In this document: in pieces, positions 714 through 32,938 of the stretch
Position numbering within the stretch: position 1 is the stretch's first letter
How the letters are laid out: every line of letters begins with the position of its first letter
NCBI GenBank assembly: GCA_000827325.1
Contig: KN832880.1
Span: 1,478,112-1,542,111, forward strand
Direction of reading: 5' to 3'
DNA length: 64,000 nucleotides
Source of the DNA: Oidiodendron maius Zn
Taxonomy: Eukaryota; Ascomycota; Leotiomycetes; Myxotrichaceae
Translations under genes and position numbers: made by a program
Notes under the pieces: generated by a model
Seen by the model: the letters and a program-made list of their open reading frames with translations, nothing else
Told to the model about the DNA's origin: nothing
Database searches by the model: none

Positions 714-1453
714 CTAGAAGATATTAATTATGTGTTAATAACTGTCTTAAATTATATTACTTAAATTTACTTTAGTTCTTTAAAAAGTCTACTTTTAGTT
801 ATAAAACTTTACTTCCTTAGATATAATAAACGCTTATAAAGTCTAGCTTTAAGTAAACTAATAATCTTTGAAACTTAAATTTAAATTTTCTATTAAGAGG
901 GTACTACTAGATATTAGATCTATAAGCTAGATATAATAAACTATAGTATCCTTATACTACTAAAATATAGTGGAATCATATGTTTTCCCTACTAGTTTTA
1001 GAGGGCTTTTAGAACTATATCTATCCTGCTATTATAACTAGAGCAGTATATACTGCTTGTTTGTACTTAGTAGCATTTTGATTAAGTTTAGGGAATATTA
1101 TTTTGTGGTTTTAGCCATATTATAGCTGGCACCTATTATATTGGCAGATTCAAGATCTTAAGTGTTGGTTCCACTCTGTAGTGGAATTCGATACAGTCGC
1201 TTCTAAAAATGCACGCGAAGAGCAACCCAAGCTTGCTTGAGCCTTTTACCTCGCTTGCAACCAAGGTCCCTAGACGTCTAACCAGAGATAGCTAAGCCTT
1301 GTACACTGGCCACCCCCGCCCCGCTGCTGGCGCCTAAAGCAGGGTCAGCCGCATCTTCCAGCGGCACTATCAAAATCCACTTCGTCAGACACTATCAATA
1401 CAATATCAGCTCAGGATCTTTCAAGCTACGCTGACCACTGTGTGACTCTTAGT
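714..1453. other. Gene-free stretch, AT-rich then HET promoter
   Basis: Positions 720-1130 are strongly AT-rich and rich in TA, CTA and TAG, as in RIP-decayed DNA elsewhere in the window. From about 1150 the composition returns to normal and this part should hold the HET gene promoter. I see no coding exon here, although the first exon of the left-edge STAND gene would be expected in it. Confidence 0.5.
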
Positions 1454-11925: not shown

Positions 11926-12918
11926 TCAATCTGTATCGCCCTCCTGCTCACCCTGCTTCCCAACCTGCTTGTCTGCCTGCCAGTCCTTTACAGCTTGCAA
12001 GAAGCGCATATTGCCACAAGACTGTGCGCAAGCAGTGGCACTCGGCCAATTTCTATCTTCATGCGTCTTACAATTCAGATTTGGATCCGCGCCGTGATCC
12101 AGTAAGAAGTTTACCAGCTCTCGAAATATTTGATTGGTGGGACGTCCAGCCACGATGCAAAGTGGAGTGCTGCATTGGCGGCCAAGCTGGTGTTGTACGG
12201 CATTGACGTCAAGCTTGACGACGTCTACAAGATGGCGTACCATGTCCATGCGGTGTGTATAGAATGAGCTGGGCTCAGAGCCCTCTTCCATTGCCAAGAA
12301 CGTGGCTTGCTCGACTGCGCGGTGCAGTGTCCGTGGGTCCAAGGGAGCGCCTTTCGCTCGCAGTAGCTCGAATGTCTCGACACTGCCTGACGACGCCGCC
12401 ATGCCGAGAATTGTTGGGCGTGGCACACCTGTACGGCTCTGCACGCCATCCTTGACTTGAAGCGGGTTGTCAGGAATATCGACTCTAGCGCCGTGATCCA
12501 AGCACCATCTAACAAGATCCGGATATTCCACGACATACCAAAGCAACGGCCAATTAGTAATCTTACCGGGGCCTTGTGTATTGATATCCCATCCGTGAGC
12601 AACGAGGATCTCAAGGATCTCTTGCGAAGGTTTGGTTATATAATCATTGACCATAATATCTGTGGCACTCAGTGCTGCGACATCAGCACCGTGAGGGTGG
12701 TCAACTAAATAGTTAAGCACGTGAACCGCTCCCCTTGCTGCTGAGCGCCTAAGGCCCCGTTGAACGACGTCCTGGACTGCATGGCTCGAGTTAGATTTGG
12801 AGGCGATTGATATAGCCTGTTCCATCAGCGATACATCGTCGGCCTTACATGCTTCGACGCATAATATCATTGGGTTACTGGATCGACCTGCGGTGCTTTG
12901 TTCATTTGTTTGTGCCAT
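11926..12918 (-). CDS. Ankyrin-repeat protein
   Basis: This is a 330-residue single-exon frame. Ankyrin-type helices appear from about residue 55 to 310: LRRSAARGAVHVLNYLVDHP, EILEILVAHGWDINTQ, DLVRWCLDHGARVDIPD, TILGMAASSGSVETFELLRA then KGAPLD, and RELVNFLLDHGADPNLN. Spacing is irregular, with several longer loops between repeats, as in many fungal ankyrin proteins. No partner domain is attached. The C terminus (KQVGKQGEQEGDTD) is charged. Ankyrins mediate protein-protein contact; no specific partner can be inferred. The start is the first ATG, followed by a polar leader. It is not a copy of any part of the large STAND gene at 14304-24622. Confidence 0.8.
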   Translation of the reverse strand: MAQTNEQSTAGRSSNPMILCVEACKADDVSLMEQAISIASKSNSSHAVQDVVQRGLRRSAARGAVHVLNYLVDHPHGADVAALSATDIMVNDYITKPSQEILEILVAHGWDINTQGPGKITNWPLLWYVVEYPDLVRWCLDHGARVDIPDNPLQVKDGVQSRTGVPRPTILGMAASSGSVETFELLRAKGAPLDPRTLHRAVEQATFLAMEEGSEPSSFYTHRMDMVRHLVDVVKLDVNAVQHQLGRQCSTPLCIVAGRPTNQIFRELVNFLLDHGADPNLNCKTHEDRNWPSATACAQSCGNMRFLQAVKDWQADKQVGKQGEQEGDTD

Positions 12919-13711: not shown

Positions 13712-14303
13712 TTTTATATAATACCAAGAAAAATAGCCCGCTCGCTGGGGTGGGCCCGCTCGCTTATGAACTACATTATATTTTGTGAAGGCGTGCTGGG
13801 GATAGAGGGGGCAGTGCGGGCCGTGGTGTTCCTGACTCGATTTAATAAGGGGGGCGGGGGCAGCCATGTGTAGAACGGGCGCGAAACTCCCGTTGCTCGA
13901 AGCAGAAAAAAGAAAAAAGCTGATTTGCAATCGCACGGGAGGAACTGATCATCCCAATGGCGAATTATTGGGAGGCGCCCAGTTAGCGGGCGCCATCATC
14001 CCTAATCACGCGCAGGGAACCAGTCGGTGGCCAACACGACTGATTCGAGCCCGAGGCGACGGCGCCACGCGCCTCCTGACTTGAGCTGAGCAGATGAGGG
14101 CCGTCAGCCACTGCTTCAGCTCCGAGCTTGTTAAGAGTCGTGAATTCCGTGACCGCTGCGGTCATTCTCTTTTGCGAGCTGGAGCTTGGGTCCTTCCACC
14201 TTTTCTCCTCCATGTCCAGATATCCTCTGGTGCTCTGAAACAGAGCGGCAACAAACACGACGCATCTAGATAAGCTCCACACAGAGCCCCAATTGTGCCC
14301 ATC
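13712..14303. promoter_or_regulatory. Upstream region of the large STAND gene
   Basis: About 590 bp of normal to GC-rich DNA between a solo LTR and the start codon. GCCCGCTCGCT occurs twice within 13736-13765. I see no coding frame in it. It should contain the promoter and 5' leader; I cannot point to a defined TATA box. Confidence 0.35.
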
Positions 14304-17300
14304 ATGGCAGCTACCGCCCCCGCCCCCGCCAGGAAGCACTCGAAATTCGACAAGCAGGTAAGAGACTCGCGAAAATTAGGCTTTCCGAGTGAAATTAGTA
14401 TGTAACTAAATCGTCCAGGAAATAACGCAAGGGCTAAACCAATTGTATGCCCCTCCTTCCTTCGATACCGACTCAAAATGTGTAGAGTACGTATAAGCCT
14501 TATTCTTCTCAGCGTACCGTCCAGCAAGATGGTCTGACTTTGGCAAAGCATTGTGGCTGTCCCTGGTCTGGGCTCTAATATGACGCATACCTGGATATGG
14601 AAGGACGAGAAAACGCAGAGGAGGGTGCATTGGCTCAAAGATAAGGAGATGCTTCAGAAGGTTATTCCAAAAGCAAGAATTACAGTCTTCGGATATCGAT
14701 CTCAATGGTTTGGTCCTGATGCTACGAATGCAAACCTCCCGACAATTAGCGGCGATCTGCTCGAATCTATAAAGGTGGACAGGGCAGACTCTGTAAGCCT
14801 TGTCGGATAACGCCCAACGGGAGCAGTAAATGACTAGGCATACAGAAAACCAAAAAGCGACCGATAATTTTCGTTGGCCATAGCCTGGGTGGACTCATTA
14901 TAGCAAAGGTCTGTATGCACTCATGTAAATTACCAGGATAAATTTGCGACCATCTGTCTTACAACTCTAGGCCATTACAAAAGCCAAGCGAGAACCAGAA
15001 GAATACCCCGGAATTATTGATTGCATCACAGCATGTGTCTTTCTCGGGACTCCATTCAGAGGATCGGATGCTCAATCTATTGGTAAAGTCGTTGCCTTGG
15101 CGGGAGAGACTCTTGGACTAGCAAAAAACAGCAGCCTCATTAAAACGCTCAAGCATGGCGTAACGGAGCTGAATGACCTGCCAGGCGAATTCCTGTCTGA
15201 CGTAGACAAAGCACGGATTGATATCCAATGCTATTTTGAGCAGAACAAGACCAACGGTGTAAGTCTAGCATGACTCGCTCTTTATAATTTGCGGCGTGTT
15301 GACTGCCCCTCCAGATCCTAGTTGCAGATGAGAAGTCATCAACCTTTGAAGGGAAGCCAAGAAACGCATGGGATCGCGATCACGGGCAAATGAGCAAATT
15401 TGAGGGCGGCGAAAAAGATGAAAACTACAAGACCCTCTCCCTTAAACTGAAGGAATTTGCACAGCGGTCTTTCAGGACAATAAAATTGCGCCAAGACTGT
15501 GAGTGTTCCACTGATGTACTGCCTTTGATCTGTTCACTAAGGCCTGTGGTAAAGTACTTCGGCAAGAAGTGCTCAATGATTCCAGATCTGAGAAAATATT
15601 AGAGGCTCTGGAAGTGGGCAACCCCAAGAAAGACTTGGACAAAACCAGGCGTATCAGTGGCATTGCCAAAGGGGCCACTGTTACTCCATCTTGGATGCAG
15701 GGCGATAAAAAATATCTCACGTGGAGAGATGAGCTTTCCTCGCAGACGCTTTTGATCTGCGGTAGTCCAGGCAAGGGTAAGACGCTCGCGGCCATTTCCA
15801 TGATAGAAGAACTATCACAACTGCGCGATAGCGATGGCGACAGAGATGATTCAATTGTTCTTGCTTACTTCTTCTGTGATGAGCAAGACACCGAAAGGAA
15901 CAACGGTCTCAATGTTCTGAAATCTCTTGCCTGGCAGCTTCTAAAATCGAAACGACATCTCTTCCGCCATTTCTTCAAAGAAGACAAGGCCGGTACTCAG
16001 AAATTCGACTCAACGGAATTTGACTCTCTGCTAGAGTTATGGAAGCGTCTCAAAGCTGCTTTAAGCGATCGGTCTCTGGGAAAGGTCTACTTTCTTGTTT
16101 GCGGTCTCGACCAGGTTGACTCCGCGTCACGGAAGGAATTGATGAATCTTATCACCTCATTACGACCGCGTATACAGGAGGATGATAACGAAAACAGTGG
16201 TCCTTACTTGAAATGGCTATTTTTAAGCGTCCATCGTGAAGATATACTAGAAGCCCTCCAGCACGAGATGATTCTGAACCTTGACGATGGAAGCAATTCA
16301 ACGGCACAAGATGACGCTCTTCACAAGTACGTCAGCGAGAAGATCAACGATCTTACCAAGGAAAAAGGCTACAATCGATCAGTTGAATATTTTATCAGGA
16401 GTTTCATCAGCTTCCGAGCCAAAGGAAAATCAAATTATGATTGGGTTGATTTAGTCTGCCAGGAACTGAGGAGTGATGAGAAGCAGCACATTGCCATCAG
16501 GCCTCGTTTAGAAACTCTACCGTCTGATCTTTATCCCATGTATGATCAGGTCTCCTCCCGGGTAAGTGCTCCAGATCTTTGATTTTGGCCCATGTGCGAG
16601 GGTCAAAGGCAGTAGCAAAGTTGGTTATTAATATTTGCCTCCGTCGCAGGTGTTGAGTGCTTCAGAGTTAGAAGTGGAATGCTCCAAAGAAATCCTGCGG
16701 TCGCTCTTGCTGGTCTATTCGCCACCAATTACTCTATACGAGCTTGCCGTAATCGCAGGCCTACCCGAAGAAGATCGAATGAACCTAAAAGCAATAAAAC
16801 GACATGTGAATAGATGCGGAGCGCTCACAACTATTATTAAGGACAGAGTCCAACTCAGCCATAAATCTGTCCGAGATTTTCTGAGGTCCAAATCGAATGA
16901 CTGGCTTGCCATGGGCTCGGAACAGATTCAGCATGGTATAATCGCATTGCGCTGTTTCGAATACGTTCTTAATACCGTCAAAGAGGCCGAAGCGGAAAAT
17001 TTGGAGAGCTTGGAAGAAGGGGCAGCAGACGACCGAGAGAACGTGGAAGGAGATGCAGCAAATGATCAGGAGAATGTGAAAGAAGATGCAGCAAATGATC
17101 AGGAGAATGTGAAAGAAGATGCAGCAGATGATCAGGAGAACTTGAAAGAAGATGCAGCAGATGAGCGGCAGATTGCGAAAGAAGATACAACAGACAACCA
17201 GCAAAATGTGAAAGAAGACGAATCAGACCAGTCGTCGGACGACGATGATACAGACGAATGGGACTGGGACGATACGGACACAGAGGATGAAGAGGATGAA

Positions 17301-20300
17301 ATAGATGATGCAGGGCCAGTCAAATCTGGTCACAAGAAGGCTGCCCCGGAGAAACAAATACTTCGGTATCCTTACACTCAGTGGATCGAACACGCCCTAC
17401 AATCAACCGCTGACATTGTGGAGAATTTTGGCATTGGAGACGTATTCTGGTTGCTGGGGTCTAGAGAGAGAGCCGAGTGGTCTAAATCCTATTCGAAACT
17501 GAACGATCCAGAGTCAGGAGAATTTGATGTAGACTTTACTGCTCTTCACGTTGCTGCATACTTTGGTTACGTGCCTCTTGCGGACTTATTATTGAAAACC
17601 AGTGCGCATATCGAGGAAATCCGTGCAACGGACAGCCAAGGTCTCCAGCCGCTATACTGGGCTTGCAGGAGAGGCCATATGAATATGGTGCAAAAACTCT
17701 GCAAGGCAGGAGCCGATGTTAGCTACCAGCAGACATTTGTAGAGCACGGACTCACTGCACTACATGGAGCTGTCATGTCCGAGAAGTCGGAGATAACTGA
17801 GTACCTTCTCAACCACAACGCTGCAGTTGACGTGCCAAACAAATACTGGGGCTCTGCACTTTACATTGCTGCCGATATGAAGCAACTGGCGATTGCGCAG
17901 CAGTTACTAAGCAAGAAAGCTGATCCCAACCTTGCGAGCGGGGATGAAGGGAATCCCTTAAATGCCGCTGCGTATTCAGGTAGCCTAGAGATTGTGAAGC
18001 TCCTTGTGGAGAGTGGAGCGGAGGTCAACCCAACGGTAGAGCATAAGTTTGGTAATGCTCTTGGCGTAGCCTGCTGGTCAGGTCAGAAAGAGATTGCGGA
18101 GTATTTGCTACAACAAAATTGCGACTTCAAGAAAATGGGTGGGGGAGGATCCCGTCCATTGGAGATTGCAGCAGAATATGGACACCAGGAAACTGTGCAA
18201 CTTCTGCTGCTCCACGATTTAGATCCCGAATCTCACCAAAAGGCCTTGCTCCAAGCTGTTGAATGGGAGCATATTGATTGCGTACGCGTTCTGCTTGAAA
18301 AGTGTCCGCAAATCGATCGTAGCGAGGCTTTCAAGACCGCCGCCAGCAATGGCTATACGGAAATACTGAAGGAACTCGCGAGCAAAAACATGGGGCCCGA
18401 AGTACTGGCAAAGGCTCTATATGAAGCTGCTGAATATGAACACGAGGAAGCAGTTAGACAGCTGCTGGAGATGGACGCAAATCCTGATGCCGAGGGAGAA
18501 GAGTAAGTGCGATTAAAACATCTTATTTGTGCTGTCTATACGACCACATCCAAGTACTTGATTCGAGTAAGGCAGCTAACAATTTTGTGTGTAGGTATGG
18601 AAATGTGCTGCAGGTCTCTGCTTACATTGGCAATATGGAATTTCTTAAATTGCTGCTTGAAAAGGGCGCAAAGCCTAGCCTATCTTATGTTGGATCGGAA
18701 TATGGAACAGCTCTCCAAGCAGCATGCTTCGATGGGAATATTGAGAATGTGAAGCTCCTCATCGAATATGGGGCGAGTGTCAATACGGAGATATGTGGCG
18801 AGTACGGTACTCCTCTACAAGCTGCTTGCGCCCAGGGTTACACAGAAATTGTCCAGCTTCTTCTAGAAAAGGGTGCAGACCCGAATGCTGAAGGGGGCCC
18901 TGATGGGTATGCAATTATTGCGGCAACTGGTTTTGGTCATAGCGATATTCTAGAGTTGCTTGTCGAGCACGGGGCAGAAGTCGATGTCAGAAGTCCTAAA
19001 GATGGCTCTACTCCGCTGACAAACGCGGCGATGGAACTCTCTAAATCCAGTCTAGAGCTCCTGATAAACCACGGGGCACCAATCCATGTACGTGATGATG
19101 ATGGCGACACAGCTCTTATAATGGCAGCGGCTTCTGGCGATGTCGAACGGGTTCTCTATCTCCTGGAAAAAGATTCCGATATCCGGACCATTGGGAAATG
19201 GGGAGGGGCGCTATACCGTGCCACCGAAGTATCTGCCATTGATTCTATGAGAGTGTTACTGGATCATGGCATTAATGTTAATCAAGAAGGCGGTGACATG
19301 CATACCCCTCTTCAGGCAGCGGCCTCTCTTGGGGAAAAAGAATCCGTTGATCTCCTCCTGGAGTACAATGGAGACGTGAATAAAGTTGGCGGTAAGTTTC
19401 ATACGGCTTTGCAAGCCGCAGTTTCAGCCGACAGCATCGAAGTGGCTCAATTGCTGTTGGATCATGGCGCAGATCCAAATAAACATGGAGGCAAACACGG
19501 AACGGTTTTGCATGCCGCAATCTATGCTAACCCAAGTGAATTCATTAATCTGCTTCTCGAACACGGAGCCGACATCAATGCTCTGGCCGAAAGGGGAACT
19601 CCACTACAGCTTGCTTGCGCGATCCTGGGGATAGACCATGTGACTAACCTGTTGGACAAGGGAGCAGATCCCAATATCGTTGGCGGGAGGTATGGAACTG
19701 CGCTGCAAGCAGCATGTTTTCATTTAGAAAATGAAGTGGCTGAACTTCTCCTTGAGAAAGGCGCCGATCCTATGCTTAGAGGCGGCTGCTACAGTAGCGC
19801 CTTAGGCGCAGCTGCAGCAAAGGGTGCTGGAACTTGTCTAGAATTGTTGCTAGACAAATATCCTACACAAGGCATGGTTCTCGAGGCTTTGCATCACGCA
19901 GCACACTATCGCGAGAAGCGCGCCGTGCGAGATCTCCTCGACCATGGCGTGGATGTCACAGCGGCAAGTCGCCATTATGCATCCGCATTCGAGGCGCTAG
20001 ATGCAGAGCTCTCTCCAGAAGAAAGAAAGCAAAAGAATGGTGATTATGATTTCTGGTATGGGCCGTATCGCGAGGATGACGAGGACGACGACGATGACGA
20101 CAGCTCTGACGAAGAAGGCATGCCGAATGACAAGAAGTCCGAGAATGGCGGTGATGAGGGTAGTAGTGATAGTATTGATGGAGGGAATGAAGAGAAGGAC
20201 AAAGAAGAGGAGGCCGAAGCGCAGAAAGAAATCAAACAAATGCTCGAAGAAGCTCTCGATAGTTTCCGCAAAGATGAGCAACCGGATGGCGAGCTCGATC

Positions 20301-23300
20301 AACCAATTCCTTTGGTGCAGCCGCTTCAATCTCTCTGTAGAGAGATTCACGGCAAGCCGGTGGCTCCAACTTTTACCTCGGCGCTCTCTGTCCCCTTACC
20401 GGAGTTTGAAGAAAACTACATCACCGCTGCAGACAGCAACCGAGCCAGAGAGCTTTTAATCCAGCAACGGGTGGTTGATGGAAAAGCAAAGAAGACGAAG
20501 AAGGAAGAGCCATTTACATCTAAAGAAGTCAATCCCGTTCTTGATACTGTGATAGTCAATAAAATCAACCCTGCAACTCCAGGTCTTGTGCAGGCATTGC
20601 TCCACGAAGGCGGAGATGTTAGTATAGCTCGTCAAAAAAGCAAATCCATATGGAAGAAGGTCCTTCGGAAGGATCAACAAGACCGTCGAAGTGACATTCT
20701 CGCCAAAGCCACCCAAAATTGTTCACTAGAAGTGGTCTGGATTTTGACACATGAAGCGGATGATATTGCTAAGACCGAGGCCTTACCATACGCCATTAAT
20801 GAGAATGATACGGCCAAAGCGCGCATCCTGCTGGACTCAGGCGCCAACGCAGAAGAGTTTTGCAAGGAGTTCTTATCAGCTGTGGAAAACAACGCGGACG
20901 ACATGGTGGAGATTCTCCTACGCTCCCCGAAAGGCCCTTGTCCTCAATGTCGTACCACGGGCCTGGTAAAAGCGGTCAATAACGGCTCCTTACGAAAAAC
21001 CTTGATGTTGCTTGAGAAAGGAGCAGATGCGGATTTCCAGAATGCAGCCGCTTTGCAGAGAGCCATATCCGATGGCAGAGAAGACCTGGCGAATCATATT
21101 ACGTTTTGCGCTAGCAAACCGTCTCCAAAGTCCCTTGATACTGCTGTTGGGCTTGCGCATGCCAAACTGGCTAATGATGCAGGGAAGCAACACTGTATGA
21201 TTGATATCTGTCTTCTAGGGGGGGCTCGTGGCAGTATTACCGATGGGACGCTAGTGCAGGCGTGCAAGCGTGGGCAAAATGCGTTAATAGACATTCTGCT
21301 CACACATGGCGCTTCTGTCGATCACAGCGCAGGTGCAGCTCTTCAGTATGCAATACAAAGCAAAAAACCAGCATTAGTCACGACTCTTCTGCGTGGCAAG
21401 CCTTCTCTTTCAACACTCGCCACCGCGATTCCGGTAACAACAACTCTGAATGATCCTGTGATGGCTCTTGAGATTGTTGACATTCTTCTATCTGCTGGTC
21501 TTCGGGGAGACTCGGTCAGTCAGACCCTCATTACGGTCATCGAGCATCCCATTTCAGTGTTCGGAGATCCGGAGCATCTCAACTTGATTCAACTCCTTCT
21601 GGAGAAAGGATACGCCAATATAAACTTTAACGGAGGAAAGTCTATTTGTTTGGCCGCTGCCGAGGGCTCGACGGATATTTTAAAATTGCTGTTTCAACAT
21701 GGCCCGTCAGTGGAATCCCTTAATGCAGCCTTTCCACTTGCAATGGAACTTAAACTTGCGGGCCGAAAGTTCAAAGTAGTCACAATGATTCTGCATGCTG
21801 GAGCTTCGGGTAAGATAGTTGATGAGGCTCTTTTGGCGTCTGCGAGCACTGGTAAAGATGGCGTCGAATTAACATCGGCACTATTGAAGAAAAGCTCTGT
21901 CAACTATCAAAATGGAAAAGCTCTATGTAACGCCATCAACACCTGCTCTCTAGAACAGATGCAAGCTCTAATGGCTGGTGTGCCCTCCAAAGGTTCTTTG
22001 GAGGCGGCCTGGACCGAAGCTGACGCTCTTCAAAACGACAAATTTCAGTACCAGGCCTTCCAAATATTGCTGGCTGTTGGTGTGGATGAATCATTCAAGA
22101 ACAACTCCCTGATAACTGCTGCCAAAAGAGGGAATCGAGGCCTCCAAGTATGCACTCTCCTTCTTAAGTATCAAGCTTCACCAAACTATTCAGACGGTGC
22201 CTCTGTTGTGAATGCTGCCAAAAGGCTCCATCTGGACACTCTGAAATTACTAGCTGGTTTGGTAACCTCTACCGCGGTTTTCAGCGACGCCTTTGGTGCA
22301 TTGGCGGACGCACAAGATTGGCTTACCCCCATCGGGTTGGATGTCGTTCGACTTCTCTTAGAATATGGTGCCTCGGGCCCGCAGGTAGATGCAGCGTTCT
22401 GCAAGGCCGCGAGACTCTATAAGACTGATGCCTTAGAGCTTCTGGCAAAGTCGATTAATCCGGGAGCCGTAAACGTTGCTTTGGCTACAGTCACTCAGGC
22501 TGGGAAAGGCTGGCTCTCACCTGACAACAGCCACCTCTGGCTGATCCATTCGCTACTCGAGTGGGGTGCGGGGGGTGATTGTGTGAATATTGTCCTGCTT
22601 GAAGCCTTAGATGCTTATACTCATGGCTTCACCTCAGAAGTCCTCATCGATACCCTTTTGGTAAAAGCCGATGTCAACTTCCAGAATGGTAAAGCTGTCC
22701 AAATTGTGGCCAGATACGGAGATGCTGCACTACTAGAAAAATTAGCCCTGTGCGGAGCAACCGCAGAAACGCTATCGGTGGCATTTGCAGAAGCCATCAC
22801 CACTGGACTCGATGAGAATTCACTCATCTCTCTTATTGATGTCCTCATAAATAGCAAAGGCGCTAAATTCGACCCCAAAATCGTTCCTGATGGTTATCAG
22901 TCGTCCCTTTTTGCGGGCATAGCTAGCTACCCACAGTCGGCAACGCTGGTGAAGAAGTTGGCAGAAATAGGATGCGATGTGGAATCTAAAATCGAGTCGT
23001 TTCTTTATGATGACGAACAAGTCGAGGCGGAAGATATTACTCCACTCGCATGGGCTTTGTCCCAACCGGACAATCGTATTGCTTCTGCTACCATAGAAGC
23101 ATTAATCGAAGTCAAGGGTTAGTAGATGCCTCTGTTGTTTACACAAAGAGTCCCCCACACTAATCGGTAAATAGCGAATCCTAATTTCACGGCCAACAGC
23201 TCAATGGCCACACCTCTGATACTTGCCGCCAAATACTCAAGAAATGACCTAGTGAGAAGTCTACTAAAGGCGAAGGCGACGGTTTCAGCAAAAGATCGGT

Positions 23301-24622
23301 TCGGCCGATCAGCCCTATTCTACGCATCTCGGAATGGAGATCTTGCTTCAGTCAAGGCACTTCTTCAAGCTAAATCCCCTCTTAACGATGGTAGTCTCCA
23401 GGAAGCGGCCAAGAACTTACACAGCGAAGTTGTTGATGCTCTCATTAATGGGAAGCATGATCCTGAATTCCCAAGTAGCAATGAACTGCATGATGGCCGT
23501 TCAGCGCTCCAAGAAATGGCCTTGATGTGTGATAGCACAAAGGGTAGCACAAAGCTCGAGGAGACAATCAAGGCTCTGGTTAATGGCAAAGCCAACCCAC
23601 TAGAGAAGTCACGGGGCAAGAATGCTCTCTTCCTTGCCTTAGATAATGCAAACCCTGTTCCAATTACACGGGCACTCTTGAACTGTTTCATGTTTCAGCA
23701 TATCAACAGCAAAGAAAATGTGTACCTCGAGGCTGATCCTGAAACTGGGACGAAGTACTATTTCTCCCCTACTACGTATGTATCGCGGGGGCTTTCCCAA
23801 GGCCCTGAAAAACACAATGAGCAGCTGCTGAAACTCTTGGTCGACAATGGAGCCGCCGATCGCTTTCACGCGGAAGAGGGTGTAGAACAGCCTGCCGATG
23901 CCGTAGGGATGCCCCAAGAAATCATGGATGCTGAGGGAATGCGAAGAGCGCAAGAAGAAAGGTCGCGGAAACAAAAATGGGAAGATCAGTTGGACCTCTT
24001 GCGGAAGAAACAGGCTGCAGAACTTCAGGCAGAAATTGAGGAGGCTAAGCAGGAAGAAAGGATATTTCAAGACGAGGAACTAGCACAACTAAAACGGGAA
24101 CAGAGTGAATTGGCACATATGCAAAAACTTGCTAAGGAGGACGAAAGCAACGCTGCCCTCAAGACCACCCTGCGAGAAAAAACCGACGCCCAGAAACAAC
24201 GCGCCCTCCAAAGCGAGCTTGAATTCGAAGAAAAGCAAAAGGCTAGAGTGGCAGAGCGGAAAGCGCGTACCTTGCAACAGGACCAAGAACTCAAACTAAG
24301 AAGCCAAGAAGAAGCTAACGCACAAAAACTTGCCCTGCAAACCCAACAGGACAGACTTGCCGCAGCCGCGAGCCAACAGAAATCGCTGACGGCGCAGCGG
24401 CTGGCGGATACTCAAGGGGCGGTGGCCCGGCGCAGACTGGCAATCAAGGAAAAGCAGAAGGAGCAGGCGACGGGGCTGACGCGGGGGACCGCCGAGGAGA
24501 AGCACGCGCTATACCAGGTACAGATGCGGGAGCTGCACGCGGAGGGGGAAAAGATGAAGCTAAAGATGCTGGATAAGTATTTCGATGGGAAGCAGAAGTA
24601 TTTGATGATAATTAATGGTTGA
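14304..24622 (+). CDS. Giant STAND protein: alpha/beta-hydrolase - NACHT - ankyrin - coiled coil
   Basis: Ten exons: 14304-14357, 14419-14486, 14549-14792, 14846-14908, 14971-15258, 15315-15498, 15555-16561, 16650-18502, 18595-23121, 23200-24622. They sum to 9,711 nt, 3,236 codons plus stop, all in frame. Residues 1-300 are a SesB-like alpha/beta-hydrolase: DIVAVPGLGSN, nucleophile elbow GHSLGG (Ser135), CVFLGTPFRGSD. NACHT follows, with P-loop GSPGKGKT (370-377) and Walker B FLVCGLDQVD (480-489), which has Cys and Gln where Asp and Glu are usual. A winged-helix-like stretch ends in LSHKSVRDFL. Next are six acidic 11-residue repeats (about 758-825), classical ankyrins (about 930-1700), an Asp tract (about 1748), ankyrin-like super-repeats (about 2066-2760) and a Glu/Lys/Gln coiled coil (about 3004-3225). 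In known fungal STANDs the N-terminal domain is the effector and the repeats sense ligand. Exon edges were set by eye. Confidence 0.9.
17019..17221 (+). repeat. 33-bp coding minisatellite in the STAND gene
   Basis: Six tandem units of 33 bp encode an 11-residue acidic repeat of the type EDAANDQENVK. Units two and three are nearly identical in DNA, which suggests recent slippage or unequal exchange. It links the NACHT-side winged helix to a longer acidic stretch. Confidence 0.85.
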
Positions 24623-24649
24623 GTCCTAAAATATTACTTTCAAGAGATA

Positions 24650-25340
24650 AAGGTAAATTAAACATTACTAGTAAACGTTACGAGTATAATTAATTAACTC
24701 TTGAAATTTTAGCACTTAAAACACCTGCAGTTTCTTCTTCCTTTCTAAATTATTATACGATATATTGCCTAGGCAACTTAAGCAAACAGGCTATTTTTTC
24801 TTAGCTTTATATAAAATCATCAAAAATCTTATAAATTAAAAGTCTAAATTATAAAGTATTATTCGATCTAGAATCCTTAGGTTCTTCTTCTATATTTATA
24901 AATATACTTTAATATAGTCTATAAATACAAGCCTCCAACCTCCTATATAATAGTTTCCTTAAAGTGTATAGGGCAGTATCCCTAATAAAGGCTGGCATCA
25001 AAAGGCTTATAAAGGCTCAGAAGAAGGATATCAAGTATCTGATATAGAATACTGTTTGTAATGCCGTTAGTGCCCGGAGCTTTGCTAGGGGTAGCTCTAT
25101 ATACTGCCTTCTTGATCTCTTACAGTGTAATCTCTGGGTATTTAATAGCTAGAGGGTATTTATATCTATTAACATCCGAGAGGTCTGCTCTAGGCAGCGG
25201 CAGAAAGAATGACTGGTGTAGAGTTTCTACCTTCTCTTCTGCTTGGTGGGCGAGTTCTCTATCTAGCTTCACTAATGCTGGCGTGCTGGCGGATGCCACG
25301 GTGTGTCTATTCTTGGCCCATTTAACTAGTATATTTTCAT
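24650..25340 (-). mobile_element. LINE fragment (Tad1-like reverse transcriptase)
   Basis: Read on the minus strand from about 25340 leftward: STPALVKLDRELAHQAEEKV, ADLSDVNRYKYPLAIKYPEI, and then the RT entry motif SKAPGTNGITNSILYQ, followed by GYCPIHFKETII. These are the linker and first RT blocks of fungal non-LTR elements, with several in-frame stops (for example within PEITL*EIKKAVY). The left half, 24650-24980, fades into AT-rich RIP-like DNA. Neither end of the element is recognisable, and no target duplication was found. It lies directly after the 3' end of the giant STAND gene and abuts the F-box gene, which it interrupts. Confidence 0.75.
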
Positions 25341-25767
25341 ATATGGAAGGCACCCATATTCTGTATCATACTCGTCGTAGAAGAGGAAGGCATCCTGTAC
25401 ATAGCTGTCGGGTGTCAAGATGTCAGACTTGAAACAGTCGAAATCCAGTATTTCTATCGAGGTTACAACTAGCGTTAGAACAGTCGCATCAGATACTTAC
25501 CGGTCTTTAACAGTTCCGGGACCTTATAAGTAAATGAGATGACATGGTGGCGAACATCTGACTGTATGATGCTTTCAAGCTCCTCGAAACATAATGAGAG
25601 AACTCAAAATGAACCTGACGGAAGAGAGAAGGCAGACACACTTCTCTCAGCTGCTTACTAGCACAGGACAACTGTTTAATATCTCGGAGGGGAAGAAGAT
25701 CGATACTGGCGTAGAGAATCTCGACCGAGAGTGTATCGAGGTAGGTTCTCGTAGGATTTTGGCTCAT
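25341..25767 (-). pseudogene. F-box gene cut by a LINE
   Basis: Exon 1 (25767-25501) starts MSQNPTRTYLDTLSVEILYA and has the F-box core LLPLRDIKQLSCASKQLREV. Near 25595 the frame shifts by one base, after which the family sequence resumes as FEELESIIQSDVRHHVISFT then YKVPELLKT. Intron 25500-25454 (GTAAGT...GATAG) joins to exon 2, EILDFDCFKSDILTPDSYVQ then DAFLFYDEYDTEYGCLP, which is lost where LINE sequence begins near 25340. F-box proteins recruit substrates to SCF ubiquitin ligases. The conserved splice site and exon 2 show this was a normal host gene before disruption. Both the one-base shift and the LINE should inactivate it. Confidence 0.75.
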
Positions 25768-25868
25768 TGTGAAAGTGTTGAAAACTAGCAGGAGAATGAT
25801 TTGATGTGGTCCAAAGTGACAAAGAAAGACTGGAGAATTCCTTTATCATGACTAGAGATATTTGGCGA

Positions 25869-27970
25869 TCAATCGTTAACGGACGAATATCCACGGGTGC
25901 TAACAGCGAGCCTCGGGGTCTGGGCCTCTCTTTCAGCAACGCTTCGAGCACAACCCACATCTTTGAGTTGCTTTTGCCAAAGTGTCTTCACTGACAAGAG
26001 GTTGAACTCAAATTCTTCCTTCGCCTTATCATTACTGAATTCCAGGGCAAGATGTGTGCATTCTAGCGTCTTGACTTTTGGCTGGTCCTTGGACTTCTTA
26101 TTGTTAGATGAAACTTTTCGGTCGGAAAACAAGGTACAAAGATCCCAGGATGCCAGTTCGGACTTCTTAACTCTAAATATATGAGCAGGAAAAGGATCAC
26201 CGTTCTTTTTGGCCCTAAAGCCCAAAATTAGTGCCTTTGGGTGACATGTTTCTATTTCTATGCGATCAACTAAGAGCGAAGTTAGTATGTAGACTTGCGT
26301 ATTGGACGCTTTGGCTTACGTTCGATTTGCCAGAAGGCGTATGTGCCAGCGTCTTGCGTGAAGGCAATGATCAAGGGGGGAGGCGGAAGAGCCGTGACCA
26401 CGACCACTTTACCACTCTCCGCCTCGGAAACGGTTGTGAGGCTTGGATTGGCGTCGCTGAAACTCCAAGATGCTCTCGAGAAGCTCGACTGAATTCGCAT
26501 GCTGCTCATAGTGCCGTTCGGTGGAGGCGACCTCGGCGAGGATGGAGGGGGATTAGGAATAGGCCATTGCAGGAGCTGAATTTCACCATCGAACACATGC
26601 TGGCCGTCTCGAGATGGCCAGATCTTCTTCTGCGTAACAGTGCACGATACATCTTTGGAGTAGGCTGTAGTCTCATATCGTATGAACGCCTGCTGGAATT
26701 TGAAGGCATCAGATCGTGTTTGGAGCGGGTAGTCAGCCTGCGATCGCCCGTTCCCATAGAACACCTGCATGCTCCATTCAGTTCGAGGCCCGGTGGCGAT
26801 GGCATATAATGGGATCAGTCTATCGCTTTGGAGATCAAAGAATGTCTCTGTTTCTCTGATGCCCTGATTCTGGTCGTTTGAAGACCGTTGGTATACAATT
26901 CGTAGATTCCGATCGTCCGCCCGAAAAACGAAGATCTCTCTCGTCTCGTTTGATGGAGAAGAAGCCATAGGTAACCTCACCAGCATCTCTTCACGGCCGG
27001 CAGGCTCTGTTAGCGGCGGTTCCGGGACGACAACCTTTGGTGGCCAGATATAGAAGTCAGACATATTCAATGCACATAATTCGTCTTCGGTGTACCGTGA
27101 AATTTCCTCGCGTTCGTACTGCTCGGCAATACTTTCCCGTACTTGTTTGATAATTCGTCGATAGAGATGACCCGGCCGAGTCTTTTTCAAGCTATCGGAC
27201 TTCAACAAAATCTCAACAAGCCAGTGTGCCTTTAGGAGATGGAGGTACTGCTCCACTGTCTGATCCGTTACTGATCCATTGGACACGGCCGTGCTCTTTC
27301 GGTAATGCAATGTCATAATATCAATGCCTTCTTCCAGGGGTATCCGATATGGGTGTACGATTTGAATAGTGTTGTGCCTGCTCAGTGCGTCTCGAAATTT
27401 TTCATCGAGGCTGGAAGGAATATTTGGAAGCTCGATTCTCCTGGACAAGCCGACATGCTCCATGAGAATCTCGAGGATGTCGTGAGTCTGGGCTGCAGTG
27501 TCTGTCGCTAGTTGTAGCCTCACCGGTTCAACAAATAGAGAGATCTTGTCTGCATGGGCTTGGATGCGCCGTCGTAAATCTTCGACCTGTGCTTGTGTCG
27601 ACGTGTGCCAGAAGAGATTGTCCAGGATCGTGCCTCTCCTGCTATCAAACACGGCGTGCGCCCTCAGAAGCGTCTGGCAGTCAGTGAGGGTTGATACAAA
27701 GTCTCCGATAAGTGTGTCCGCTTCTTGCTTGAGGACTTCATGTCGCGGGACGGCGTCCAGAAGGCGGGACGCCTGGCCATCGACCTGCGCAATCGCCAGG
27801 CGGAGGGCATCTCGAAATTCAATCAGGCGATTCTCAAAGCCCTCTATTTCTCGCTTAAACTCGAGATATTTAACCTGCGCATTATTATCTGGGTCGATGC
27901 AGGTCGTCCGGATCCAATCGATGAGTTCGAGAGCCCTAACAATGTCGCCAAACGAAACCGGGGATGACAT
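25869..27970 (-). CDS. Conserved fungal protein with helical STAND-like N terminus
   Basis: Two exons, 27970-26320 and 26269-25869, are separated by a 50-bp intron (GTAAGC, ACTAAC branch, TTAG). The sum is 683 codons plus stop. I chose the ATG at 27970 (MSSPVSFGDIVRALELIDWI), because the preceding 35 codons in the open frame look like leader; 28075 is the alternative. The first 250 residues are helical (FKREIEGFENRLIEFRDALR, QVEDLRRRIQAHADKISLFV) and resemble the N-terminal helical regions found before NACHT or kinase domains in fungal signalling proteins. The middle is beta-rich with a Pro/Ser linker (NPPPSSPRSPPP). The end (CTHLALEFSNDKAKEEFEFN) resembles a PH-like fold seen in related fungal proteins. 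No catalytic motif was seen and no function is assigned. Confidence 0.75.
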
Positions 27971-28672
27971 GTTAGCCGGCCACGTTCCTGGGCGGGGTCG
28001 AGTCGCGATGGAAAAGCCGATTTCAACGAAAACACTCACGAGGCTGGGAGATGAGGGGAGAAAAGACAACGGCACATCCTGTTACCTCCATGTCCCGTGC
28101 AGGCATCAGCTGTCAGCTGCCAGCTGTAATGATACTCTATGCACGTAAGAAGGGGCCATGGCGTATTCAGCCTCATATGTCTTTCCAACACCTCCACCGC
28201 CAGTCTGCCGCGGCTCGATCGGCCGAGGAGAGACGACTTCCTTTTGCATGGCGGGACGCACACGTAGTACTCTGTTAGTGGTACGCGGCGCCGCCCGCCC
28301 TACTTCCCTCTTGGCGTTCGTGTCAGCTTCTCCTACTGGTCTAGTGTTGAACTGCAGTGCCCCCCATGCCCTGGCGCCGACCGTCGCGTGTGCCAGGCTA
28401 ACTCGCTCTGGGGTCTACTTCCATGGAGAATACTGTCCCGTGAGGCTGAGAAGAATGCCTCGCAGGGCACACGCAGGGACACTACGGACGTATCTGGACA
28501 GCCAATCCCCCCCCGTGATAAGACGGCCCAGTGCGTGTCCGTATTTGTAAGAGTTTTGAATTAAAAGCCTTTGGGCCCGGTGCTTGCAACTTTGCGCAAG
28601 TCTGGAGACAGGAGCCGTTTATATCGAGACATCCATCGGAAGGCCGGTTCCAGCGGTCGAGAAATAACCGCA
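27971..28672. promoter_or_regulatory. Divergent intergenic region
   Basis: About 700 bp separate the starts of the helical protein (minus) and the permease (plus). The composition is normal and GC-balanced. It should serve as promoter for both genes; I find no defined control site. Confidence 0.4.
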
Positions 28673-30760
28673 ATGGTCGCTGCGATGGGGTCTCCCGACG
28701 GCGGTTCAGACGATTTGATCAACCAAGCGGGGCAAGACGAGCCGGAAGCATTCACGCGCCATGCGCAACTCGAGCAGGCAAGGGCGCATTATAACAGGGA
28801 GAAGCAGGTCCAATACCTCTTGACGTGTATCTCAGAATCCTTGCTGACCGTCTCCCGCAGCTTTTCGATCTCTCTCCAACAACCACACAACTCCTTGGGG
28901 CTTTTGACATTTTTTGTCTCGTTCTGAACCGCACAATCGGTTCCGGGATATTTACGGTACCTCCCAAGGTGCTTGCGGGTACTGGCAGCATTGGTGCCTC
29001 TCTGCTACTATGGCTCGCGGGCGGCGTAATAATTATATGCGGCATGCTCTGTTGGCTCGAACTTGGATTGACTATTCCTATGCACACGGTATATGAAAAT
29101 GGGACGCCGCGCAAAGTGTCTGCTCCACGGAGTGGGGGTGTAAAAAACTACGTGAGTCCTCCAACGCGATAATGCCTTCGAAACTAACATCTCGTAGCTC
29201 GAGTATATCTATAAGAAACCGGTCTTTATGATGACATCAGTGTTTGGCATCCTATTCATTGTCCTAGGGAACCTCGCTGGAAACGCTGTGGCGTTCGGTA
29301 TCTATGTCATGATCGCTGCAGGCAAGGATCCTATAAACAACAGCACCAACAATTACGAAAAGGGACCCATCATCGGCCTCGCCATTGCAGTTCTAACAAT
29401 TTGCTGTCTCTTCCACGTTTTCTCTAGGCGAGGTGGAATCTTGGTCAACAATACCTTTGCAGTTGCAAAGGTAGGAATACTACTTGTCATTACTGTTCTG
29501 GGGTTTGTTCATGCGGGCGGGAAGTACTTACGCAGCTCTGGTATCAACGAATCATCACCTGTCCCCCTGAATAACGATTCGATGATAGTGGCAAACATCA
29601 CTAGCGCGATGATCAATGACGCAACGAATATCAATTTTGACAAGACGACCAGTTTCAAGTCCACAGGCGATTTCAATAGCTTTGTTGGGTCCTTGTTGTT
29701 TGCCGTGTACTCCTTTACGGGGTTTGATCAACCCTTTTACGTTATGAGCGAGGTTGCCAAGCCCAGGAAAATCTTTCCGACAGCAGCTGTCACCGCCATG
29801 CTCACGACGATAGTTTTGTACATGCTCGTCAACGTAAGTTACTTCTGCGTCGTACCTAAAGAACTGTACACAGAAACCTCGGCAAGTGCAATTGATATGG
29901 CTGGCGCCTTTTTTCACGATCTCTTCGACTCCACCTACGGACCACATGCAGGCCTGCGGGCTATGGCAGCTCTAGTCGCATTCTCCATTTTTGGAAACAT
30001 ACTTGTATTGACATTTACGGCTGCACGAGTTAAGCAAGAGATTGCTAAAGAAGGCATACTCCCCAACTCCCTCTTCTTCGCAACAAGCCACACAACACCA
30101 TGGGCGCTCTTCCGAAATCGATCCCGAAATAATTCCATTATTAGCGCTGAAGATGATTTTGGTATCGAAACGCACCTAGAAAAGTCGCCCATGGCAGCGC
30201 TCGCACTCCACTGGTTCACCTCCATCTTTTTAGTCCTGATTACAGCAATGTTGCAGCCCGAGACAGCCTATTCTTTCCTCGTCGCCTTCTACAACTACGT
30301 GGATGTGGCAGTTCTGGGCAGTTTGACCGCAGGGGGCCTTCTATATCTAAAGATAGATTCCTGGCTCCGTAAAGAGCGTGGGCGAAACTGGTACAGCAAA
30401 GTCCAATGGACGCCATGGCTTGACCCCTTACCAGCAATAGTCTACTTCTCTGCCATGACATTCTTCCTTTTCGCTTCGTTCGCCAAGCCAGCGGATAATT
30501 CGCCTTTCTCAGAGAAGGCAATGCAGTATGTATGGTTTCTTGTGCCAGTGATTGGACTGTCGAGTCTGTTGTGGGGAGTGGTTTGGTGGTTTGGCTTGGA
30601 GCTTGCACAGTGGAAGGGAAGATTTAGGATTGAGGTTTCGAGGAGACCATATTTAGAGAGAGATAGTGAGGGAAATTACGTACAGAGAGTTGAGTTGGTA
30701 GAGCATGAGAGATTTTATTCTTCGGTCTCAGGAAGGAGACATAATTCTAGGGACGTATAA
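28673..30760 (+). CDS. Amino-acid permease, Mup/LAT-type APC family
   Basis: Three exons, 28673-28807, 28861-29151 and 29198-30760, sum to 662 codons plus stop. The first membrane helix carries the APC signature LNRTIGSGIFTVPPKVL. Further family motifs are PRSGGVKNYLEYIYKKP across the second intron, FGILFIVLGNLAGNAVAFGI, and FTGFDQPFYVMSEVAKPRK. About twelve hydrophobic segments are visible. This arrangement is that of fungal high- and low-affinity methionine permeases and related LAT-like carriers, which import amino acids with protons at the plasma membrane. Substrate cannot be fixed from sequence alone. The N terminus is hydrophilic and acidic, the C terminus short. The start ATG gives MVAAMGSPDGGSDD; an in-frame GTG further upstream was not used. 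Confidence 0.88.
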
Positions 30761-31446
30761 ATATTTCATTTAATTTAGTCTCTAGTTAGTAACTCCTAAT
30801 ATAGCAGACCGGTCTCCCGACATGTGAGATTCACAATGACAAGAGTCAACTGGGCATGATTCGGGCGGCGGAAAACGAAAAACGGGATACCTCTAGCCGT
30901 TTCAGACAACTAATCATTCCTAACAGAAAGAGTAATAATTAGTCTTTCTCTTGAACTTGAGTGACCAGTAGCGGATTTGGCGCTTCAACTTCTGCATTGA
31001 TGTTGCAAGGCGCGGGACTTCGGCATCCCGTCGTTCATCTGCGCATCAGTTTCATTCGGCCAATCGCCTTCTGAAAGAAGAAAAATAATCTTTCCTATAT
31101 CGTGTTCTGATTGGCTATAAGCTGCTTGCTGAGAATTAAGCGCCTAGCCTTGAAGCGTATTCCGGTCAACGAATGGTTATACAAAAGACGAATAATAATT
31201 CTTTATTATCTTAGTGGTAATTGGCTCTAGTTAGGGCCGGTGCTTAAATAACAGCAGCAGTACTGATTGGGAGCGGGTTGTAACTTGGTACAAAATTAAG
31301 AAAGTTAAGATTCCGGTGTTGTATCGAGAGTGATATCTTAGACTATAAAATTTGACGTTATGTTTTTATCTAGCCTTACAATATATAAAAGGAAAACACG
31401 CTATAATATTAAATTTATAAATTTCAAATGTTTTAAAGTAACAATA
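30761..31446. other. Gene-free stretch
   Basis: Normal composition to about 31300, then AT-rich. No gene or repeat recognised. Confidence 0.4.
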
Positions 31447-31608
31447 ATGACTAAAGTTAAGAAGAGAAGCCAGAAGCTAAATAGACGAAAAGAGACATTA
31501 CTGAAAAAGGCCTATAAGATTGGAATACTTTACAATATAGATATAGCAGTATATCTCTGTTATTTCAAAAGTAGCTGTCTTATTACCTACAAATATATTA
31601 ATCTATAA
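31447..31608 (+). pseudogene. MADS-box-like fragment
   Basis: A 53-codon frame in AT-rich DNA reads MTKVKKRSQKLNRRKETLLK followed by KAYKIGILYNIDIAVYLCYF. The RR(K)xxLLKKAYxxGxLxxxDxAVxx pattern resembles the DNA-binding helix and first strand of a MADS-box, as found in short MADS-like proteins of some ascomycetes. The following sequence is AT-rich and decayed, and no further domain is seen. It is probably a relic; a short expressed protein is less likely. Confidence 0.35.
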
Positions 31609-31938
31609 TGCTAGCTACATACTAAAGAACAGATTGTAAGTGCTTTCGTATATCGGAAGTACCCTACTAATAGAGCTATAGTAATACACCTATCCTATCC
31701 TATTAGTTCTGCTGCTAAAGGATATAGAAGCCAAGTATAGAGAGGATTAGAATGTTATTATAGAGGCTAGTTAGAGGCTATAGCAGTCGGATTTAGACAA
31801 GGAGCTCTAGGAAAGGCTCTATTAGTATAGCTAATGAAGGTATTAGTATAGGAAACGATTCGTTAGGAGATGAAAGGCTTTTTACTATTGATTTTAAGCG
31901 TTAAACTAACTCTAGTTATAGATATTATTTATAAAATC
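31609..31938. other. AT-rich decayed stretch
   Basis: Rich in TAG/CTA, as in the Gypsy interiors. No feature recognised. Confidence 0.4.
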
Positions 31939-32193
31939 TGTTGACTGGTATAAGGCTTCAAGCGTATCTACACATGCGATACAGCTGCCTACTAGGCTGC
32001 CCACTGGTGCCTGTAGGGTGACTAAGTGGGAGCCTATTTGGTGACTCAATTGAGTGTATAGTGTTGAGCATAAAAGGCTCTAGTTCTCCTGAATCTCTTC
32101 TTACTTTAGTTGTCTCTACATCACTCAATATAACACTGAGTTTCACCTTGATTCCTGACTACAACCTGTGCACTATGTGACCTCAGTTCAAGA
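31939..32193 (+). mobile_element. Solo LTR, copy 2
   Basis: 255 bp beginning TGTTGACTGG and ending CAGTTCAAGA, flanked by identical AAATC at 31934-31938 and 32194-32198. It is the same family as the copy at 13454-13711, in opposite orientation. No internal sequence adjoins it. Confidence 0.75.
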
Positions 32194-32198
32194 AAATC

Positions 32199-32658
32199 AA
32201 TAGTCTATATATATACCTAAAACTTCTAGATAGTTCTCTCTATATCCTATAACTTCTCTTTCTTTTCTAACTACCTAACCTAGTTATTTAATAAGTTATA
32301 AACCTTCTTAAGCTAGTTATTTAATCCCTTATAAATTTTCTTCTTAATAACCTACTATATAATATCCAATTGCTCTTCTGTTTACTATATCCTATCTGTT
32401 GCTATATAGAAGAGTTCTTCTATCTAGCTTGCTTGCTTTTTACTGCATTCTTGCTTACCTTGCTGTTATAGAGTACCTTTATCTATAATTATACCCTCCC
32501 TATTACTCCCCTACTGTTATCTTAACTGTATCTAAAAGCTTTTCCTCTATAGTACTACTTAATGTTAGTATGCCTATAACTACAAGATCTCTTAACCTAA
32601 GATCTCTTGCTATAGACTTAGTAACCGTTATCCAGCAGTCTAACATTTATTTATCTGT
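32199..32658. other. Pyrimidine-rich, AT-rich stretch
   Basis: Contains a two-copy repeat of CTAGTTATTTAAT with neighbouring TTATAAA (about 32279-32340). It is the left flank of the first Gypsy element. No gene seen. Confidence 0.4.
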
Positions 32659-32938
32659 TGTTACGGACGAATGGTCGTCACGTGGCCAGGGCGAGACATA
32701 GAGCGCAGCTGAGACGCTGGTGCGACGCACTAGCTGCGACGACTCCTAGATCTTAGGAGTGGGACTTTGATAAAAGGAGAGTGATCCTCTCTAAGGGTTC
32801 TGTAAGAAATAGTCTGTCTTTTGAATTGATTTCTGCTTCAGGGCACAGGAGTTGTCCTGGGAGCTTATACAATATCATTGCATGTGTTACACCTATAATT
32901 CCCTGCCTTTACGCCAGCCTCTGGGAGGCATCCTTACA
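32659..32938 (+). repeat. 5' LTR of Gypsy element 1
   Basis: 280 bp, TG...CA, paired with 40445-40724 and far more GC-rich than the interior. Confidence 0.92.

Follow-up and report, generated by a model that had tools for sequence, protein, structure and literature searches.

The gene at positions 14304 to 24622 of the window (the whole 64-kb stretch of DNA that was analyzed) probably encodes, in a filamentous fungus that is most likely an ascomycete, a single 3,243-residue NLR-type STAND receptor that is ankyrin-sensed, NTPase-switched, and hydrolase-triggered. In its open spliced frame, a hydrolase head, an NTPase, and an ankyrin sensor follow one another (DUF676, NPHP3_N, and Ank families), an order read directly from the sequence and one that agrees with the single fungal STAND/NLR-type protein proposed in a preliminary description of this DNA. 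The same description considered it a poorly described system, a view that we do not share: the accessible parts of two surveys already treat SesB-like hydrolase/NACHT/ankyrin proteins as a class of fungal NLRs (PMC4986451, PMC12258605). The protein is a large but otherwise ordinary relative of these NLRs with one unusual part, a helical tail of ~230 residues. Within a known receptor class, its main contribution is a giant example with clear limits and a revised exon map, as follows.

14304-24622, forward strand: whole gene, coding sequence with introns; ten exons, 3,243 aa (spliced model plus introns)
14304-14357, 14419-14486, 14549-14792, 14846-14908, 14971-15258, forward strand: exons 1 to 5, preferred model
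15315-15498, 15555-16561, 16650-18502, 18595-23117, 23175-24622, forward strand: exons 6 to 10, preferred model
14476-15497, forward strand: alpha/beta-hydrolase head, residues ~38-300; DUF676 match, outer borders by inspection
15686-16213, forward strand: STAND NTPase, residues ~345-520; NPHP3_N (PF24883), E = 3.7e-24
16659-16901, forward strand: probable winged helix of the switch, residues 640-720; judged by eye from location and sequence, no Pfam match
17014-17218, forward strand: acidic linker carrying a tandem repeat of 33 bp; Tandem Repeats Finder
17505-19885, forward strand: canonical ankyrin array, residues 922-1684, crossing intron 8
20006-20473, forward strand: acidic charged spacer between ankyrin regions, residues ~1725-1880; E 16%, D 14%
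20528-23116, forward strand: divergent ankyrin region, residues 1899-2761 (863 residues); Pfam and repeat profile
23118-23174, forward strand: preferred last intron, 57 nt, GTTAGT...ATAG
23177-23920, forward strand: final ankyrin-type repeats plus cap, residues 2763-3010
23921-24619, forward strand: helical polar tail, residues ~3011-3243; AlphaFold prediction

The preliminary description had given two introns, a total length, and some junction motifs, and the remaining exon borders were rebuilt here. With introns 18503-18594 and 23122-23199, the rebuilt model returns the ten exons and 9,711 nt claimed, encoding 3,236 aa with one terminal stop; an alternative last intron (donor GTTAGT at 23118, acceptor end at 23174) lengthens these to 9,732 nt and 3,243 aa. 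Internal stops in the spliced message, named beforehand as grounds for rejecting the gene, occur with neither version of the last junction. The junctions also restore the expected motifs, with VDIVAVPGLG starting at residue 40 and spanning the exon 2/3 junction and KTKKRP opening exon 4 (residue 123) ahead of GHSLGG at 133. All nine introns of the rebuilt model are GT-AG and 53 to 92 nt long, and exon 9 runs for 1,507 codons without a stop, while the two other frames of the same stretch hold 96 and 66 stops. By these signs the gene is real, a single open spliced gene. Its unusual length could point to two or three separate genes, or to a decayed pseudogene, but such readings are highly improbable, as the 9.7-kb spliced frame contains neither stop nor frameshift and the junctions of introns 8 and 9 fall among ankyrin repeats that stay in frame.

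The last intron as first placed, 23122-23199, is probably wrong. In Pfam searches of the joined sequence, the alternative junction scored 44.0 bits for Ank and 44.4 bits for Ank_2, compared with 40.0 and 40.8 bits for the earlier one, and with a small repeat profile built here the two were nearly equal (3.9 vs 2.6 bits); our preference for 23118-23174 is a modest one. Were this intron retained, translation would end directly after residue 2762 (the readthrough begins with G and two stops) and the tail would be missing. It is conceivable that the gene yields two transcripts, one retained and ending there and one spliced, which would make the tail optional. The in-frame stops at the start of the retained intron would suit this idea, but retention brings an in-frame stop in eight of the nine introns, so that the last is not special, and we hold it to be very unlikely.

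An effector domain at the N terminus, as in NLRs generally, is indicated by DUF676, which matches the head above its Pfam cut-off (E = 1.2e-7; 31.9 bits vs 20.3; best stretch, residues 79-176). The nucleophile elbow GHSLGG is intact, with Ser135 as its serine, and a candidate histidine, His262 within DRDHGQMSKF, was assigned by inspection; an alpha/beta hydrolase with these elements would be SesB-like. The central nucleotide-binding oligomerization domain with Walker motifs is likewise present, with an intact Walker A, GSPGKGKT, at 370 (Lys376) and a Walker-B-like VYFLVCGLDQVD at 478. PF05729 (NACHT) was not among the six Pfam families matching exon 7 at E <= 0.1, and the NACHT label thus rests on NPHP3_N, motifs, and literature. 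NPHP3_N presumably covers fungal T-NACHT; the domain is filed here as a STAND NTPase, NACHT-like. The 2014 survey of fungal NLRs, in its accessible text, built its queries on PF05729 (PMC4986451).

Other sequence searches added little for these two domains. PDB returned one match for the hydrolase, an isomerase (E = 0.053), and four for the NTPase (best E = 0.22), all unconvincing. In NCBIfam, no family matched the head, and five matched the NTPase far below cut-off (best E = 2.2e-4, an orc1/cdc6-type model). PADLOC gave DUF626_VIII (E = 7.1e-5, 20.1 bits) and one weaker match for the head, and mad8 (E = 3.1e-4) and three weaker matches for the NTPase, which we attribute to similarities common to hydrolases and P-loop proteins. 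Between the switch and the sensor, the repeat of the acidic linker comprises 6.2 copies with 82% matches, consisting of variants of NDQENVKEDAA (Tandem Repeats Finder).

Exons 8, 9, and 10 all match Ank families, which here represent the superstructure-forming repeats that end NLRs. Ank_2 reaches E = 1.3e-50 in exon 8 and 4.5e-88 over the whole of exon 9 (nine stretches), and the self-lag score of the canonical region has a peak of +0.06 at lag 33. A profile found 24 stretches in this region; for the 13 of them chosen by motif, to which the identity figures are confined, pairwise identity averages 34% and is at most 61%. Fast-evolving NLR repeats have been defined as >85% alike across at least 100 residues (PMC4986451, accessible text), well above that top value among the 13. 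Because the repeats do not have this fast-evolving, highly alike character, they lend no specific support to a role in allorecognition.

Beyond the charged spacer (20081-20527 gave only sub-threshold Pfam matches), the preliminary description had seen 700 residues of ankyrin-like super-repeats. The ankyrin part of this claim stands, and extends to 863 residues. The first two thirds match Ank_2 (E = 3.2e-17 and 1.4e-11) and the last third shows a sub-threshold Ank_3 alone (E = 0.033); residues 1881-2765 score 29.1 bits against a profile of the 13 canonical repeats, compared with <=0.7 for five shuffles. The super-period was not recovered, as the best self-lag scores were negative (-0.65) with no peak and self-BLAST gave the trivial match only. 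Judged by their sequence, then, these "super-repeats" are degenerate ankyrins. An AlphaFold model of the region was all helical but, at a pLDDT of 44.5, too poor for a fold search. In the final repeats, Ank_2 matches exon 10 (E = 3.1e-16) and 23375-23938 (E = 1.3e-6), and 23177-23920 finds ankyrins and DARPins in PDB (best E = 2e-27); our own repeat profile gave nothing above shuffles in residues 2763-3010.

The comparisons that follow draw on the accessible portions of the papers cited. The order of hydrolase, P-loop STAND NTPase, and ankyrins is that of described fungal NLRs such as the Metarhizium anisopliae SESB-LIKE NACHT ANK protein (Table 2 of PMC4986451, a survey that merges sesB with Pfam alpha/beta hydrolases) and the sesB-like T-NACHT NLRs, of which 624 sesB-like/T-NACHT members were counted in Sordariales (PMC12258605). 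Compared by description, the present protein has in addition 863 divergent ankyrin residues, two acidic stretches, and the helical tail. Some Sordariales NLRs also carry additions behind the repeats, but these are annotated domains (zinc finger, SPRY, kinase) rather than a polar helical tail (PMC12258605). In Nectria haematococca, a NACHT-ankyrin STAND protein is likewise linked with a SesB hydrolase at the HET-eN/sesA/sesB locus; there the hydrolase is a separate protein, and it and the STAND protein have a sigma-type extension in common (PMC3321046), whereas here it is fused, and simple PP- and sigma-type amyloid signaling patterns are absent from residues 1-330. Neurospora PLP-1 (patatin/NB-ARC/TPR) offers a model of how such a protein may work, since it too combines a lipase-type effector, an NTPase switch, and repeats, although its lipase family, NTPase, and repeat type are different. 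For PLP-1, self-interaction has been described, as has a dependence of cell death on its ATP-binding motif and its patatin activity (PMC12881547). We count this dependence on lipase and ATP motif, together with the match to described architectures, in favor of the receptor model.

By analogy with this family, the ankyrin array would detect either a ligand or an altered host protein, keeping the receptor inactive until then. Its release would allow the P-loop NTPase to exchange nucleotide and oligomerize, and clustering would activate the SesB-like alpha/beta hydrolase at the N terminus, probably on a membrane lipid or ester. The outcome may be regulated cell death, or a defense or incompatibility response.

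The tail is predicted to be helical, with helices at 250-321, 326-431, and 439-480 of exon 10 in an AlphaFold single-sequence model (ten-residue mean pLDDT mostly between 70 and 84, falling in places to 55-64 and at the extreme end to 41). It is rich in Glu, Ala, Gln, Lys, and Leu, its 232 residues including 47 K+R, 43 D+E, 31 Gln, and 32 Ala. The preliminary description regarded it as a coiled coil and as a possible oligomerization or signaling device not normal for this class. A true coiled coil could preassemble a dimer or trimer, or recruit a partner whose coil matches, and oligomerization would then be partly built in before ligand binding. Its composition, the ~220 residues predicted as long helices, the 38% hydrophobic share of the last helix, and the segment closest to heptad order among 16 (residues 3061-3102, reached by 40 of 500 shuffles) all favor such a structure. 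However, in a simple Fourier test, as distinct from a trained coiled-coil predictor, the 3.5-residue hydrophobic periodicity of the whole tail was reached by 1756 of 2000 shuffles and that of the three helices by 639, 1931, and 1354 of 2000, whereas a GCN4 control was reached by 1 of 2000. Other periods were also unremarkable (over the whole tail: best of 3.4-3.9, 472 of 1000 shuffles; 11-residue and 15-residue types, 259 and 150 of 1000), and the first two helices are just 21% and 16% hydrophobic. Coiled-coil character is thus unproven, and a true coiled coil seems unlikely. An isolated single helix (ER/K-type), acting as a rigid spacer, is similarly doubtful: the predicted helicity and high charge suit it, but opposite charges are not enriched at i,i+4 (20, against a shuffle mean of 17.1, s.d. 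3.5) and number 19 at i,i+3 (17.3 in shuffles), and Gln and Ala are many. Most likely the tail would lengthen the sensor arm, serving as a helix for docking or spacing, and switching could be explained without it; of all the parts of the receptor model, this role is the weakest inference.

Similar polar helical ends may occur on other large fungal ankyrin proteins. It is possible, though decidedly improbable, that the tail represents a separate type of C-terminal module, recurrent among fungal NLRs and acting from the sensor end, either by docking the giant receptor to a partner, the cytoskeleton, or a membrane or by relaying the binding of ligand back through the ankyrin solenoid. Such a module would be a second signaling pole opposite the N-terminal effector, not met in the accessible part of the fungal NLR literature surveyed; there, among the open-access matches listed, no fungal NLR was described as having a C-terminal coil or helical tail, and "coiled" has 0 occurrences in the main text of PMC12258605. 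If the tail recurs, one may ask whether fungal NLRs have, C-terminal to their repeats, a further part for docking, one that annotation by repeat models alone would overlook.

Searches with the tail gave no PDB match at E <= 0.01, none in PADLOC, one sub-threshold NCBIfam match (E = 0.066), and no relative by tblastn in a plasmid collection. A sub-threshold Pfam match to the BT domain of acetyl-CoA carboxylase (E = 0.0077; 16.5 bits vs a cut-off of 27) was taken as composition-driven. None of the pattern matches was confirmed for the last 327 residues (80) or the divergent ankyrin region (20) in prokaryotic genome contigs, or for exon 10 (21) or the NTPase exon (2) in viral contigs. These searches for relatives covered viral, prokaryotic, and plasmid collections and have no bearing on recurrence in fungi.

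In the 64-kb window as a whole, Rfam (gathering score) and ARAGORN reported nothing. Two HET-domain pieces lie ~10-13 kb upstream of the gene; a self/non-self context would fit, but is not proved by, their presence.

The receptor, a STAND (NLR-type) protein, is encoded by a gene of ten exons that contains a linker of acidic composition.

14304-24622, + strand: receptor gene, one long spliced gene
17014-17218: acidic linker between the switch (NTPase part) and the sensor (ankyrin part), with a coding 33-bp tandem repeat (6.2 copies, 82% matches)

The preliminary description gave two introns, the total length, and junction motifs, and the remaining exon borders were rebuilt here. The model rebuilt around those two introns reproduced its ten exons, 9,711 nt, 3,236 residues, and single terminal stop. 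All introns are GT-AG and short (53-92 nt). Such introns, the HET-domain pieces nearby, and the domain architecture point to a filamentous fungus, probably an ascomycete, as the source. Exon 9 has 1,507 stop-free codons while the other two frames hold 96 and 66 stops, an openness far beyond chance. GC by codon position is 0.599, 0.384, and 0.480 for the whole receptor coding sequence and 0.661, 0.330, and 0.575 for the tail (the C-terminal end, residues ~3011-3243, encoded in exon 10), differences that are as expected for coding DNA. Strains probably differ in the length of the tandem repeat in the linker.

Two readings of the last intron were compared. The intron originally placed at 23122-23199 does yield an open frame, joining the protein as ...IEVKGYSMATPL, but in an alternative, with donor GTTAGT at 23118 and the end of the acceptor at 23174, the junction reads ...IEVKANPNFTANSSMATPL and the coding sequence comes to 9,732 nt and 3,243 residues (the numbering used here); this intron has a branch-like CTAAT beginning 15 nt upstream of its end. 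In Pfam, the joined stretch scored 44.0 bits with the alternative versus 40.0 for Ank, and 44.4 versus 40.8 for Ank_2; a small in-house repeat profile scarcely separates the readings (3.9 versus 2.6 bits). We have a modest preference for the intron at 23118-23174. Because ankyrin sequence follows the last junction under either reading (Pfam), the tail is most likely part of the same protein as the receptor.

Residues 1-360, the head, matched nine Pfam families at E<=0.1, of which DUF676 was the sole one above its own cut-off (E=1.2e-7, aligned residues 79-176); GHSLGG at residue 133 contains Ser135. Exon 7 matched NPHP3_N (E=3.7e-24) and carries GSPGKGKT at residue 370 and VYFLVCGLDQVD at residue 478, and the classic NACHT model was absent among its six Pfam matches at E<=0.1. 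The hydrolase proposed earlier is supported, and the proposed NACHT holds as a P-loop NTPase but not as a match to the classic model.

Pfam Ank_2 was found in exons 8 (E=1.3e-50), 9 (E=4.5e-88), and 10 (E=3.1e-16). The 13 repeats of the canonical region (residues 922-1684) compared pairwise had a mean identity of 34% and a highest of 61%, short of the mark of over 85% given for fast-evolving recognition repeats in PMC4986451. A further 700 residues of ankyrin-like super-repeats had been claimed. The divergent ankyrin (residues 1899-2761) was confirmed: Ank_2 covers its first two thirds, with a weak trace only in the last third; residues 1881-2765 scored 29.1 bits against a profile built from the receptor's own 13 canonical repeats (five shuffles, <=0.7); and BLAST, run without composition correction, aligned the divergent with the canonical region across 646 columns with 23% identity (E=2.3e-11). 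The super-repeats were not, as lag scores in this region had no peak and self-BLAST gave the identity line alone. Residues 2756-3010 scored 2.7 bits against the same profile, not above shuffles (up to 3.8); ankyrin was nonetheless found there by Pfam and PDB sequence matches. PMC4986451 also mentions cryptic repeats that have degenerated too far for Pfam signatures to recognise. A single-sequence AlphaFold model of the divergent region, with helices throughout at pLDDT 44.5, was left out of the argument.

The hydrolase, P-loop NTPase, and ankyrin of the receptor are also found in the fungal sesB-like NACHT ankyrin NLRs of PMC4986451, including a Metarhizium SESB-LIKE NACHT ANK protein. PMC12258605 counts 624 sesB-like T-NACHT NLRs in Sordariales, with T-NACHT/ankyrin among the commonest pairings. 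By its sequence, the receptor belongs to this already known kind of fungal NLR. From such NLRs, and from the lipase-type PLP-1, in which patatin activity and the nucleotide motif are required for cell death (PMC12881547), we infer that the ankyrins would sense, the NTPase would drive clustering, and the hydrolase would trigger cell death or defence. Parts of the receptor had no confirmed relative in viral, prokaryotic, or plasmid collections, a result that is silent on fungi. Additional domains in Sordariales NLRs include zinc fingers, SPRY, and kinases, and 170 of 185 extra-domain kinds occur in just one to three NLRs; the word "coiled" has no occurrence in the main text of PMC12258605. Novelty could rest on one point, a possible recurrence of the tail.

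This tail had been described as a coiled coil. In a single-sequence AlphaFold model of exon 10 (mean pLDDT 55.9, pTM 0.23), it was the best part, with helices predicted at exon 10 positions 250-321, 326-431, and 439-480, all within protein residues 3012-3242. Their ten-residue pLDDT means were mostly 70-84, with dips. Helix prediction is easy for such a composition and is no evidence for any particular assembly. Hydrophobic 3.5 periodicity was equalled or exceeded by 1756 of 2000 shuffles for the whole tail and by 639, 1931, and 1354 of 2000 for the three helices, whereas a GCN4 zipper control was reached by 1/2000. The test is crude, using one hydrophobic set, one short control, and no trained predictor; coils that are Ala-rich or irregular would escape it. 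The protein was also scanned from residue 2991 onward in 16 windows, each 42 residues long; the best heptad score was reached by 40/500 shuffles, which is unremarkable given 16 tries. The strongest periods of the whole tail were 3.7-3.8, and the best of periods 3.4-3.9 was reached by 472/1000 shuffles; 15-residue and 11-residue types were also often matched (150/1000 and 259/1000), and the lowest count for a single helix was 125/1000 (11-residue type, residues 3012-3083). Opposite charges at i,i+4 were not enriched (20 observed versus 17.1 in shuffles, SD 3.5). Because neither periodicity nor charge pairs stand out from shuffles, the tail has no support as a canonical coiled coil or as a single helix of the canonical ER/K type. 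The tail can be described as a "polar helical tail," its helices being predicted, and no further; it is improbable that it serves as a second signalling pole of the receptor.

The surroundings of the receptor gene hold the following:

1292-3388, + strand: HET-domain (heterokaryon incompatibility) piece, PF06985 E=1.4e-4, barely at cut-off
3619-4188, - strand, opposite to the preceding piece: HET-domain piece, PF06985 E=2.7e-12
11929-12915, - strand: small ankyrin ORF, separate from the receptor gene and upstream of it (Ank E=1.2e-11, 329 residues searched)
26282-27970, - strand: ORF of 562 codons from the first MSSPVS methionine, ~1.7 kb beyond the receptor gene

The N terminus of the last ORF resembles, by eye, fungal STAND-associated N-terminal domains; the 560 residues searched matched no Pfam family at E<=0.1 and no PDB entry at E<=1. 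It is possibly a partner gene of the receptor. No stop-to-stop ORF of at least 150 aa occurs in 30760-49205. GC in 2-kb steps is 0.32-0.41 across 34001-48000 versus 0.44-0.52 across 14001-30000, and this AT-rich stretch may consist of decayed repeats.
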